34,215 bases of DNA. Origin: an uncultured Bacteroidota bacterium. GTDB taxonomy: Bacteria > Bacteroidota > Bacteroidia > Chitinophagales > Chitinophagaceae. Within the stretch, counting starts at the first letter, position 1. Every line of letters starts with the position of its first letter. The translations under genes were made by a program, and so were the position numbers. Positions 9,140 to 17,384 of this stretch are shown here, piece after piece. The DNA is taken from the NCBI GenBank assembly GCA_903953815.1, contig CAJBLA010000212.1, positions 1 to 34,215 of the forward strand, given 5' to 3'. The notes below the pieces were generated by a model. That model made no database searches. It saw only the letters and a program-made list of their open reading frames with translations, and was not told the DNA's origin.

Positions 9140-9181
9140 AAACTATTACTTAGGTATTGTATTTCAATAGGTTATACACAA

Positions 9182-13848: not shown

Positions 13849-15369
13849 TTATTCGTTTGTTTCCGGGCGCATTTGCGGGAAGAATAATACATCTTGTATA
13901 GAAGGTTGATTCAACATCATCATACATAAACGATCTATTCCAATACCAATTCCCGAAGTAGGTGGCATGCCATATTCCAAGGCTCTTAAAAAGTCATGGT
14001 CAATAAACATGGCTTCATCATCCCCTCTTTCCATAAGTGCTACTTGATCCTCAAAACGCTTGCGTTGATCAATAGGGTCATTTAATTCCGTATAAGCATT
14101 GGCTAACTCTTTGCCATTGACCATTAATTCAAAACGCTCAACCAATCCTTCCTTTGAACGATGCTTTTTAGTTAATGGGCTCATTTCAATCGGATAGTCA
14201 ATAATAAATGTTGGTTGGATATATTTTGATTCACTGGTTGCACCAAAAATTTCATCAATTAATTTTCCTTTTCCTATCGTTGGTGGCACATCAATATGTA
14301 ATTGCTTACAAACATCTCTTAAGCCCGCTTCATCCATTGCTGAAATATCAATACCGGTATTTTCCTGTATGGCTTCCATAATCGTCACACGACGAAAAGG
14401 TGCTTTAAAATTAATAGTGGTATCGCCAACGGTTAGTTCAGTTTTTCCATGCAAGGTGATTGCAATCTTTTCAAACAATTGTTCTGTTATTTCCATCATC
14501 CAGAAATAATCTTTGTATGCAGTATACCATTCTAATACGGTAAACTCTGGATTATGCGTACGATCCATTCCTTCATTTCTAAAGTTGCGGCTAAACTCAT
14601 ACACCCATTCAAAACCACCGACAATTAATCGCTTTAAATATAATTCATTCGCAATACGCAGGTAAAATGGAACATCCAATGCATTATGATGCGTCGTAAA
14701 AGGCCTAGCAGCAGCACCCCCAGGAATAGCTTGTAACACAGGTGTATCCACCTCTAATGCACCACGGGTATTTAAAAACTCCCGAATGGTGGTCATTAAT
14801 AATGTACGCTTTACAAAAGTTTCTTTTACATCTGGATTAATAATTAAATCAGCATAGCGTTGACGGTATCTGAATTCAGGATCCGTTACTGCATCAAACA
14901 CATGACCATCTTCATCACGCTTCACCACCGGTAATGGCTTTAATGATTTTGCTAATAAGGTAATGGTACTGGCATGCAATGAGGTTTCACCAGTTTTGGT
15001 GACAAACACATATCCAGTTGCGCCTAAAATGTCACCTAGGTCCATGGCGTTTTTAGTCATCACGTCCCAATAGGTCTTATCCTCGTCTGGACAAATTTCA
15101 TCTCTCTTTATATATAACTGAAAAATGCCCTTGTCATCTTGAATTTTTACAAATAACACTTTACCCTTATCATTCACGCTCATAATACGACCGGCAACAC
15201 AAACCGCTGCAAATTGCTCTTTGGTTTCCTCGGTATAGTTTTGCTTTATATCACTTGAATAGTGGGTCACCGGATATAAAGGGGCTGGATAGGGATTAAT
15301 GCCTGCAGCTTCTAATTGTTGTAATTTTTCGCGTCGAATGATTTCTTGTTCGGACAATGATTGACTCAT
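13849..15369 (-). CDS. lysS: Lysine-tRNA ligase (class II)
   Basis: Charges tRNA-Lys in the cytosol. It has an N-terminal OB-fold anticodon-binding domain (about 55-150; VAGRIMSVNDKGKVLFVKIQ) and a class II catalytic core with FRNEGMDRTHNPEFTVLEWY (motif 2), ELANAYTELNDP and GIGIGIDRLCMMM (motif 3). The 506 residues match the family. A TACTTTTG box lies 31-38 bp upstream of the ATG, inside the 3' end of the rluE gene, so lysS can probably be transcribed separately even though rluE reads toward it at a 49-bp distance. It converges with the M20 gene with a 23-bp gap and no visible terminator. Confidence 0.97.
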   Translation of the reverse strand: MSQSLSEQEIIRREKLQQLEAAGINPYPAPLYPVTHYSSDIKQNYTEETKEQFAAVCVAGRIMSVNDKGKVLFVKIQDDKGIFQLYIKRDEICPDEDKTYWDVMTKNAMDLGDILGATGYVFVTKTGETSLHASTITLLAKSLKPLPVVKRDEDGHVFDAVTDPEFRYRQRYADLIINPDVKETFVKRTLLMTTIREFLNTRGALEVDTPVLQAIPGGAAARPFTTHHNALDVPFYLRIANELYLKRLIVGGFEWVYEFSRNFRNEGMDRTHNPEFTVLEWYTAYKDYFWMMEITEQLFEKIAITLHGKTELTVGDTTINFKAPFRRVTIMEAIQENTGIDISAMDEAGLRDVCKQLHIDVPPTIGKGKLIDEIFGATSESKYIQPTFIIDYPIEMSPLTKKHRSKEGLVERFELMVNGKELANAYTELNDPIDQRKRFEDQVALMERGDDEAMFIDHDFLRALEYGMPPTSGIGIGIDRLCMMMLNQPSIQDVLFFPQMRPETNE

Positions 15370-15399: not shown

Positions 15400-15430
15400 C
15401 AAAAGTAAAACTTAAGCATCAATTAACGAA
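15400..15430 (-). promoter_or_regulatory. Probable internal promoter of lysS
   Basis: On the minus strand TACTTTTG (15407-15400) is an exact TAnnTTTG match, with TTCG (15430-15427) 19 bp upstream as an imperfect -33 element. The -33 part lies in the end of rluE. The predicted leader is about 25 nt. Confidence 0.5.
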
Positions 15431-16003
15431 TAAAGCATTTTGAACCTCCTCAAAACTCAAGGAGAGGCAATCGCTAGGCTGCATTTGAGCTATAGAAAAC
15501 TGCCCTATTTGGGACCGAATTAATCTTACAACGGGGAATCCCACACTTGCAAACATTTTACGGACCTGCCTATTTTTACCTTCGGTGAGCTGAATAGATA
15601 CCCAGCTCGTAGGAATGCTTTTTCGCACCCGAATGGGAGGATTTCTTTCGGGTACTAATAGGTTATCGGGTAATATGTTAAGTATTGCTTTTTTAGTTTC
15701 ATAGGTTTTCCCATCTACTGAAATGGTCACACCTTTGGATAAGGATTCAATTGCATCACTAGTGATTACGCCATCTACTTGCACCCAATAAGTGCGTGCA
15801 TGCGCAAATTTTGGATGTAATAATTGATGATTAATACTTGTATCATTCGTTAATAATAACAAACCTTCACTATCATAATCTAATCGACCCACTGGATAAA
15901 CATCCTTGGATACATTCAAGATATCTTTTAAGCACAATTTACCATCCGAGGATGTAAACTGCGATAATACTTGATAAGGTTTATATATTAAATAATATTC
16001 CAT
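15419..16003 (-). CDS. rluE: RsuA/RluB/RluE-family 23S rRNA pseudouridine synthase
   Basis: Converts a specific uridine of rRNA to pseudouridine; RluE acts at U2457 of 23S rRNA in E. coli. The catalytic loop is YPVGRLDYDSEGLLLLTND, with Asp in GRLD as nucleophile. The stretch RNPPIRVRKSIPTSW, then EGKNRQVRKM and GFPVVRLIR, is the pattern I associate with RluE rather than RluB or RsuA, and there is no N-terminal S4 domain. The ORF track begins at a TTG (16027); the ATG at 16003-16001 gives the expected MEYYLIYKPYQVL start and 194 residues. A terminator-like hairpin ends 16 bp upstream of that ATG, so expression may depend on readthrough. lysS follows 49 bp later. Confidence 0.88.
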   Translation of the reverse strand: MEYYLIYKPYQVLSQFTSSDGKLCLKDILNVSKDVYPVGRLDYDSEGLLLLTNDTSINHQLLHPKFAHARTYWVQVDGVITSDAIESLSKGVTISVDGKTYETKKAILNILPDNLLVPERNPPIRVRKSIPTSWVSIQLTEGKNRQVRKMFASVGFPVVRLIRSQIGQFSIAQMQPSDCLSLSFEEVQNALFVN

Positions 16004-16018
16004 TTTTACAGTTGAATG

Positions 16019-16052
16019 AAAAAACAAAGTCCTCCTGAATGCTCAAGAGGAC
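16019..16052 (-). terminator. Intrinsic terminator-like hairpin just upstream of rluE
   Basis: Minus-strand GTCCTC, a 12-nt loop and GAGGAC, followed immediately by TTTGTTTTTT. The stem is short but the U-tract is good. Placement between a promoter and rluE suggests premature termination. Confidence 0.55.
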
Positions 16053-16094
16053 CTCGTATATGGATGGGTTAGTAAGTACGGGAATTGAATTCCC
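16019..16094 (-). ncRNA. Candidate small RNA or rluE attenuator leader
   Basis: On the minus strand a good promoter (see 16099-16129) points at a ~75-nt segment. Its predicted 5' end is a perfect hairpin GGGAATT-C-AATTCCC (16094-16080). A single-stranded linker follows, then a 6-bp stem GTCCTC/GAGGAC (16052-16029) and a TTTGTTTTTT tract (16028-16019). This is the layout of a small non-coding RNA with its own promoter and intrinsic terminator. Since rluE begins 16 bp later on the same strand, it may instead be a transcription attenuator. No ATG lies in it, so a leader peptide from ATG is unlikely. I do not recognise a known RNA family. Confidence 0.5.
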
Positions 16095-16098
16095 TTCA

Positions 16099-16129
16099 CA
16101 ATATTAAATATACTTTTTTCTAATTCAAA
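16099..16129 (-). promoter_or_regulatory. Promoter of the small RNA / rluE leader
   Basis: The minus strand has TTTG (16129-16126), a 19-bp spacer and TAATATTG (16106-16099), one mismatch from TAnnTTTG and with an exact -33. The predicted start falls on the first bases of the 5' hairpin. Confidence 0.55.
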
Positions 16130-16439
16130 AAATATTTTAAACAAATTTATTGTGGTTATCCACATATTGCCATTTTTATACGATTATTTTATAGTAAAAT
16201 AATGGCTTTACTAGTAGTAAATTTTTTATAAATTAATAAGCCCTATTATTTTGTAACTGTCTGAAACATTGATGAATAAAGGGTTTTATTAATTTGCATT
16301 ATTTATATTTTTATAAATTAAAACTATTAAATGTTATGATTTTTTATATAACGAGGGGGTTAATTTATGCACTTAATGATGAAAAAAATATTTTTATAAA
16401 AAAGGGGCATTACCTTTGATTTAGGCCAAAAAACTACTT
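16107..16439. other. AT-rich gene-free region upstream of lpxD
   Basis: No ORF of any plausibility is present and the DNA is strikingly AT-rich. It holds TTATCCACA at 16156-16164 (a perfect consensus DnaA-box sequence, also part of a TGTGG-TTAT-CCACA hairpin), a TTTAC-N5-GTAAA stem followed by T6 at 16207-16227, and a long imperfect inverted repeat with arms 16230-16244 and 16279-16295. The right end contains the lpxD promoter. I see no tRNA or known RNA. Confidence 0.6.
16411..16418 (+). promoter_or_regulatory. Probable -7 box of lpxD
   Basis: TACCTTTG is an exact TAnnTTTG match 21 bp before the ATG. The -33 region is a T-run (16391-16395) rather than a clear TTTG. Predicted leader about 16 nt. 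Confidence 0.5.
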
Positions 16440-17384
16440 ATGAAGCTACTTACACCCGTTTCTGTTGCATGGTTATCCAAATTAACCAATGCTGAAATTA
16501 TCGGTAATCAACACTTAGAAATTACTGGCGTGAATGAAATTCATCAGGTTGAATTAGGTGATATTGTGTTTGTTGATCATCCAAAATACTATAATACTTG
16601 TTTAAACAGCGAAGCAAGTTGTATAATTATTAATGATAAAAATGTAATAGTGCCCGAAGGAAAGGCTTTGTTATTTTGTACTGATCCATTTGAAGCTTAT
16701 TTAAAAATTGTAAAACACTTTAAGCCATTTATTCCTTGTGCAAAAGCAATAAGTGATGATGCAATTATAGGAGAAGGAACCATAATCATGCCTCATGTTT
16801 TTATTGGACCCAATGTAACCATTGGTAAAAATTGTGTGTTGCATCCGAGTGTTTCTATTTTATCAGATACCGTTATTGGGGATGAAGTAATTATTCAAGC
16901 CAATACGGTGATTGGAAGTGACGCTTTTTATTATAATACAAAAAAGGACCGCCAGGATTGGTATAAAAAACTACTCAGCTGCGGCAGGGTGGTCATTCAA
17001 GATAAGGTGGAAATAGGCGCCGGATGTACCATTGATCGCGGGGTGAGCGGCGATACTATTGTGGGAAGGGGCACTAAGATTGACAATATGGTACATATTG
17101 GTCATGATACCCAAATTGAACCCAATTGTTTGTTTGCAGCAGGGGTTGCCATTGCGGGGGGGGTTCAAATAAAGTCGGGGGTTACTTTATGGGGCCAAGT
17201 GGGCGTGACGAAGACAATAACCATTGGTGAAAACGCCACCGTTTTGGGTCATTCTGGCGTAACAGGTAGTTTGGCTGGCAATAAAGTATATATGGGATTC
17301 CCTGCAGAAGATGCTGGCATTAAGAAAAGAGAGATTGTTTGGATAAAACGCATCCCAGAATTATGGAAGAAGGTGATGGAATAA
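16440..17384 (+). CDS. lpxD: LpxD-like UDP-3-O-acylglucosamine N-acyltransferase
   Basis: Predicted to add the N-linked acyl chain to UDP-3-O-acyl-glucosamine in lipid A synthesis. The N-terminal LpxD uridine-binding domain spans about 1-95 (ITGVNEIHQVELGDIVFVDHPKYY). The left-handed beta-helix of hexapeptide repeats spans about 105-285, including VIGSDAFYY, IGAGCTIDRGVSGDT and the IGHD segment where the catalytic His of LpxD lies. The 314 residues are shorter than E. coli LpxD (341), with a reduced C-terminal helix. It is alone here, not beside lpxA, lpxC or fabZ, so it could be a second, paralogous acyltransferase. Family is secure; exact substrate less so. Confidence 0.82.
   Translation: MKLLTPVSVAWLSKLTNAEIIGNQHLEITGVNEIHQVELGDIVFVDHPKYYNTCLNSEASCIIINDKNVIVPEGKALLFCTDPFEAYLKIVKHFKPFIPCAKAISDDAIIGEGTIIMPHVFIGPNVTIGKNCVLHPSVSILSDTVIGDEVIIQANTVIGSDAFYYNTKKDRQDWYKKLLSCGRVVIQDKVEIGAGCTIDRGVSGDTIVGRGTKIDNMVHIGHDTQIEPNCLFAAGVAIAGGVQIKSGVTLWGQVGVTKTITIGENATVLGHSGVTGSLAGNKVYMGFPAEDAGIKKREIVWIKRIPELWKKVME

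Follow-up and report, generated by a model that had tools for sequence, protein, structure and literature searches.

Enterobacterial small RNA (sRNA)-sponge pairs consist of an sRNA and a short RNA or 3' untranslated region (3'UTR) fragment that is complementary to the seed of the sRNA and lies beside a terminator. Few regulatory RNAs have been characterized in Bacteroidota, and Bacteroides does without the usual RNA chaperones. Indeed, neither an obvious Hfq nor an obvious ProQ is found in Bacteroides, and GibS of Bacteroides thetaiotaomicron, with a length of about 145 nt, pairs at translation starts (PMC7366714). CcnA of Caulobacter crescentus lies at the origin of replication and is presumably activated by CtrA (PMC8959179).

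The window, i.e. the whole stretch of 34,215 nucleotides that was analysed, carries a gene that we call sRNA1. Like GibS, sRNA1 is an intergenic Bacteroidota sRNA with a promoter, a conserved single-stranded seed and an intrinsic terminator, but it comprises only about 76 nt, occurs in another family and has a near-invariant linker that is complementary to a small RNA and to transcript 3' ends. With Rfp18 and other Flavobacterium sRNAs it shares conservation at the genus level; these sRNAs belong to another family, and the passages that deal with them mention no antisense partner (PMC9723704). As in the enterobacterial sponges, the partner of sRNA1 is complementary to the seed and adjoins a terminator, whereas here both RNAs are family-wide, the complementarity is full over 15 to 16 nt, and the two coevolve. 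A base-pairing sRNA with a sponge is a known kind of system; new are the presence of both members throughout the family and the repetition of the complementary module before the terminators of recA and brx. To our knowledge, no protein cofactor is known for the pair. No Rfam 15 family reached its gathering score in the window or in four related loci, including loci of the partner RNA upstream of radA (radA-leader RNA), in agreement with the original prediction, which knew no named family of this form; nor was a description of sRNA1 or of the pair found in the open-access literature. The best Rfam match of the window was the PyrR binding site (RF00515; 31.8 bits, E 0.016). A PyrR-type element was rejected, as the gathering score is 54 and no pyr gene was recognized nearby.

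The original prediction had read the locus as a compact unit of promoter, 5' hairpin, linker and terminator of about 75 nt, and this reading was confirmed. The TTTG element is separated from TAATATTG by a spacer of 19 nt. Since the -7 box of flavobacterial sigma-A promoters, TAnnTTTG, spans positions -12 to -5 (PMC9723704), transcription is predicted to start at G16094, the first G of GGGAATTCAATTCCC, and the predicted transcript runs from about 16094 to 16019 on the minus strand, which gives about 76 nt from the start to the end of the T tract. The features are as follows.

16156 to 16164, minus strand: DnaA-box-like site TGTGGATAA (TTATCCACA on the plus strand), about 50 nt upstream of the -7 box
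16126 to 16129, minus strand: -33 element TTTG of a Bacteroidota sigma-A promoter, supported by an alignment of 62 sequences
16099 to 16106, minus strand: -7 element TAATATTG, invariant across the 62-sequence alignment
16019 to 16094, minus strand: sRNA1, about 76 nt, from the inferred start to the end of the T tract
16080 to 16094, minus strand: 5' hairpin GGGAAUU C AAUUCCC (DNA, GGGAATTCAATTCCC), supported by pair-type variation and shuffle z-scores
16058 to 16079, minus strand: unpaired linker of 22 nt between the 5' hairpin and the terminator
16063 to 16078, minus strand: antisense segment UACUUACUAACCCAUC inside the linker, complementary to the radA-leader RNA and to the modules at the 3' ends of brx and recA
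16024 to 16057, minus strand: hairpin of the intrinsic terminator; the T tract behind it ends at 16019

A 78-nt RNA (16096 to 16019) was predicted to fold at -28.6 kcal/mol, compared to a mean of -13.8 kcal/mol for shuffled sequences (z = -5.6). The terminator of the window has 15 pairs and the loop GCAU and is stronger than had been noted; the supposed loop GAGCATTCAG is mostly stem. The idea that the loop might be a ligand or pairing site was not borne out, because its sequence is not conserved but varies freely among relatives. Since the hairpins differ in length, RNAalifold found no more than three pairs in a MAFFT alignment, and a per-sequence stem analysis was used instead. In this analysis, several standard pair types were found at most positions of both the 5' stem (83 distinct sequences, one of them a spurious match of the stem finder, which maximizes pairing) and the terminator stem (113 distinct sequences). 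The 5' region folds better than its shuffles, with a mean z of about -5. The conservation of the stems in relatives, which had been named as a check, was found far beyond chance, and so was that of the linker. Both stems change with pairing kept, and the arms and loop of the terminator are free to vary between genera, whereas the linker GUACUUACUAACCCAUC hardly changes. In about half of the distinct sRNA1 sequences, the predicted fold leaves no fewer than 15 of the 16 linker bases unpaired, and the mean unpaired fraction is 0.85.

A DNA search recovered the unit in most congeners, with varying stems and an unchanged linker GUACUUACUAACCCAUC-Y-AUAUA. Scanning for the exact linker gave at least 119 stretches, and the matches listed include the genera Sediminibacterium, Niabella, Flavitalea, Hydrotalea, Ferruginibacter, Agriterribacter, Puia, Segetibacter, Terrimonas and others; all of the matches listed have the anatomy of promoter, hairpin, linker and terminator, except for units cut by a contig end. 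Since the exact scan presupposed the linker, a model of the whole unit was built, which is mostly a sequence model with only three pairs, and run on 200 Chitinophagaceae genomes. The unit was found in 176 of them (157 of the 172 genomes of good quality) and in 94 of the 104 genera sampled, with one match per genome in nearly all carriers. This search also recovered linker variants in diverged genera, and therefore the near-invariance of the linker is not an artefact of the exact scan. In a class-wide sample of 198 genomes, only the four Chitinophagaceae matched. At the level of sequence comparison, these data establish the sRNA1 gene, its structure and its conservation throughout the family. 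The simple promoter-hairpin-terminator unit of a single genome could be read correctly only via its relatives.

A second small RNA, usually located upstream of radA, has an unpaired segment whose reverse complement is the linker. In the genus, 127 sites matched the anti-linker with at most one mismatch, compared to 8 for a reversed-pattern control; about 54 of the 127 are the sRNA1 unit itself. In 40 genomes of other families, the corresponding numbers were 5 and 8. Besides sRNA1, the sites are of three main kinds, the radA-leader unit and the 3'UTRs of brx and of recA, and in all three the segment, read antisense to the linker, abuts an intrinsic terminator. The radA-leader unit lies about 80 to 400 nt upstream of radA and combines a promoter of its own (TTTTG...TAATTTAG) with the segment GAAUUUAAUGGGUUAGUAAGUA and a terminator; AUGGGUUAGUAAGUA sits just 5' of the terminator. 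By pattern search, this RNA is present in 179 of the 200 Chitinophagaceae genomes. In genus g52 (L428, L429, L436), the sole copy of the partner RNA found was not detected next to radA. A mini-ORF, AUG GGU UAG, was considered as the functional element of the partner RNA and rejected, its start being lost in G128 (CUG) and G270 (AUA).

The pattern search found no copy of the radA-leader RNA in the window's own genome, and the only partner detected there is therefore the 3' end of brx. This module (G000:C47:15875-15890, L092) lies in the 3'UTR of a BrxA/BrxB bacilliredoxin gene, and further loci of the brx type are L031-L037, L096-L100, L109-L111 and L120-L123. The module stands between the brx stop codon and the terminator, upstream of an lgt-like gene. 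At the 3' end of recA, the module GATGGGTTAGTNA is found directly ahead of the terminator in many, not all, congeners (L108, L112-L116, L119, L124, L125, L259, L288, L289). In single clades, a module also precedes the terminator behind a TonB-receptor-like gene, near a pyruvate dehydrogenase beta-like gene (L117, L287), or the terminator behind a YdeI-like gene (L118). A loose pattern search for diverged partners performed no better than its control.

Because the linker is the exact reverse complement of the partner segment, the two RNAs probably bind and control each other. In 44 pairs from the same genome, standard pairs are formed at 647 of the 660 positions that make up the 15-nt duplexes. 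In 20,000 shuffles of the partners, a test that ignores phylogeny, the mean was 640.7 and the maximum 646. Three double changes that keep pairing were found in two unrelated genomes: in G270, the linker changed from C to U and the partner from G to A (C-G to U-A), and in G218, one pair changed from U-A to C-G and another from C-G to U-A. One-sided changes that keep a G-U pair occur in several genera (A to G or C to U in the linker, A to G in the partner). Pairing is imperfect in g34, g51 and g64, which carry mismatches; in g52, both RNAs changed at the same pair and now form an A-A mismatch, and the brx module of the window's own genome has an A-C mismatch at position 13. The complex of the window RNA with this module was nevertheless predicted at -69.0 kcal/mol, compared to -48.8 kcal/mol for the two apart, a gain of about 20 kcal/mol with both hairpins kept. 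These comparisons demonstrate, for the predicted RNAs, the complementarity of sRNA1 and its partner and their coevolution. Both the independent-sRNA branch of the original prediction, by family-wide conservation as well, and the linker as a pairing site thereby gained support: an unpaired conserved region of sRNA1 is complementary to a trans-encoded RNA.

We consider it likely that sRNA1 is an independent gene for a trans-acting base-pairing small RNA that undergoes mutual titration with its partner RNAs, with DnaA as a possible timer; the model would involve transcription of the gene, pairing of the RNAs within the cell, their degradation by one another and control by DnaA. The 5' hairpin would protect the RNA, the 22-nt linker would be single stranded, and the terminator would close it. 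The linker would pair over 15 to 16 nt with AUGGGUUAGUAAGUA in the radA-leader RNA, in a duplex flanked by hairpins, and likewise with the AUGGGUUAGUAAGUA copies at the 3' ends of the brx (bacilliredoxin) and recA transcripts. The RNAs would titrate and destroy one another, one being the sponge of the other, and the RNA released or silenced would act on further targets, with DnaA setting the level of sRNA1. More tentatively, the whole may form a family-wide circuit, in which a DnaA-controlled sRNA1 and the radA-leader sRNA act as antisense RNAs of each other and in which the 3' modules of recA and bacilliredoxin couple the replication state to repair and redox functions; this is possible, and we hold it with much less assurance than the titration itself. 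Its retention as a single copy by most genera of this large, environmental family and the equal conservation of its antisense partner make sRNA1 a strong core-regulator candidate, and the two RNAs are a defined pair for testing.

Alternatively, sRNA1 could be a regulator of the conventional type that uses its linker as a seed for many mRNAs, with the radA-leader RNA and the 3' modules as ordinary targets or decoys. Its hairpin, conserved single-stranded seed and terminator are indeed the usual anatomy, as in GibS (PMC7366714), and genomes differ in their modules at brx, at recA and at a small number of further genes. However, the partner RNA has its own promoter and is as widely kept as sRNA1 (179 versus 176 of 200 genomes), and the known pairing sites precede terminators and are not at start codons, which makes this explanation less likely. 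It is less probable still that a DNA-binding protein reads the 15-bp motif as DNA at all of the loci, so that the reverse-complement relation is a matter of orientation only. The concerted changes at two loci in G270 and G218 would also be expected of coevolving operators, and the motif follows the promoter at a short distance in each of the two small RNA genes. At recA and brx, however, it lies in the 3'UTR right before the terminator, away from the promoter; it is always inside the predicted transcript, abutting a hairpin; and the one-sided changes keep G-U pairing, which is relevant only to RNA. RNA pairing is therefore favoured over a DNA site by the position of the motifs inside transcripts, before terminators and in 3'UTRs.

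The original prediction had also allowed for an attenuator that controls rluE and possibly lysS by regulated read-through of the terminator. The genes around sRNA1 in the window are the following.

15419 to 16003, minus strand: RluE-like 23S rRNA pseudouridine synthase, the neighbour in the window, not kept family-wide
13849 to 15369, minus strand: lysS, lysine--tRNA ligase, the immediate neighbour of sRNA1 in part of the genus
16440 to 17384, plus strand: lpxD, UDP-3-O-acylglucosamine N-acyltransferase, divergently oriented and retained beside sRNA1 in most genomes

In the window and in congeners, the distance from the end of the T tract to rluE or lysS is no more than a few tens of nucleotides, which leaves little or no room for another promoter, and read-through therefore probably feeds these genes. 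In the window, the rluE ATG (16003) follows the T tract after only 15 nt, so that rluE may depend on read-through, and a local cis role of this kind may exist and is compatible with a trans-acting sRNA1. As a general function, attenuation found no support and is very unlikely. An attenuator requires a conserved association with rluE/lysS, but the gene behind sRNA1 varies by genome and may be rluE followed by lysS, lysS alone or, in many genomes, yicC or a GNAT-type gene (a label that is our reading of the sequence); the unit is thus independent of any single downstream gene. Moreover, the linker is near-invariant while the terminator arms vary freely between genera, and therefore no conserved antiterminator is possible; no such alternative fold of the window RNA was seen in the MFE or centroid structure. 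A complementary partner at an unrelated locus would also be left unexplained. In a large part of the family (L235, L157, L140 and others), the gene behind sRNA1 is yicC, of an endoribonuclease family. An E. coli member of this family has been linked to sRNA decay.

Upstream of sRNA1, the window has one DnaA-box-like site. The sequence TTATNCACA, which we take to be the usual DnaA-box consensus, was found within 120 nt upstream of 131 of 194 sRNA1 promoters, compared to a mean of 1.9 in dinucleotide shuffles, and in 90 of 129 distinct upstream regions, mostly at fixed positions: among the 129 distinct loci, 45 sites start exactly at -49 and 24 at -71 from the -7 box. Ahead of the partner RNA it is rarer (7 of 35; shuffles, 0.35). 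The sites often form an inverted pair, TTATCCACA-N13-TGTKAATAA (in the upstream regions L138-L181, among others); an exact pair is rare in the genome as a whole, since ten genomes gave six matches, of which three lie at the sRNA1 locus. These upstream sites suggest that the synthesis of sRNA1 is probably controlled by DnaA and hence follows replication or growth. If they work, sRNA1 would be a small RNA that reports the replication state, and its partners at radA, recA and brx would tie it to DNA repair. That the locus is itself a replication origin or part of one, with DnaA boxes, an AT-rich stretch and an incidental transcript, is hardly credible: two DnaA-box-like sites in inverted orientation do lie upstream, along with an AT-rich segment, and CcnA of Caulobacter is a non-coding RNA at an origin (PMC8959179), but in G017 (a single contig) the origin-type GC-skew switch, at coarse sampling, is at about 2.62 to 2.77 Mb and the locus itself at 2.36 Mb, and the conservation of the hairpins and the partner RNA would be left unexplained. 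Under DnaA control, sRNA1 would resemble CcnA as a non-coding RNA tied to replication control, and it differs from CcnA in that the skew switch lies away from its locus and the upstream sites resemble DnaA boxes. Two other TTATNCACA sites are present in the window, at 9172 and 31883.
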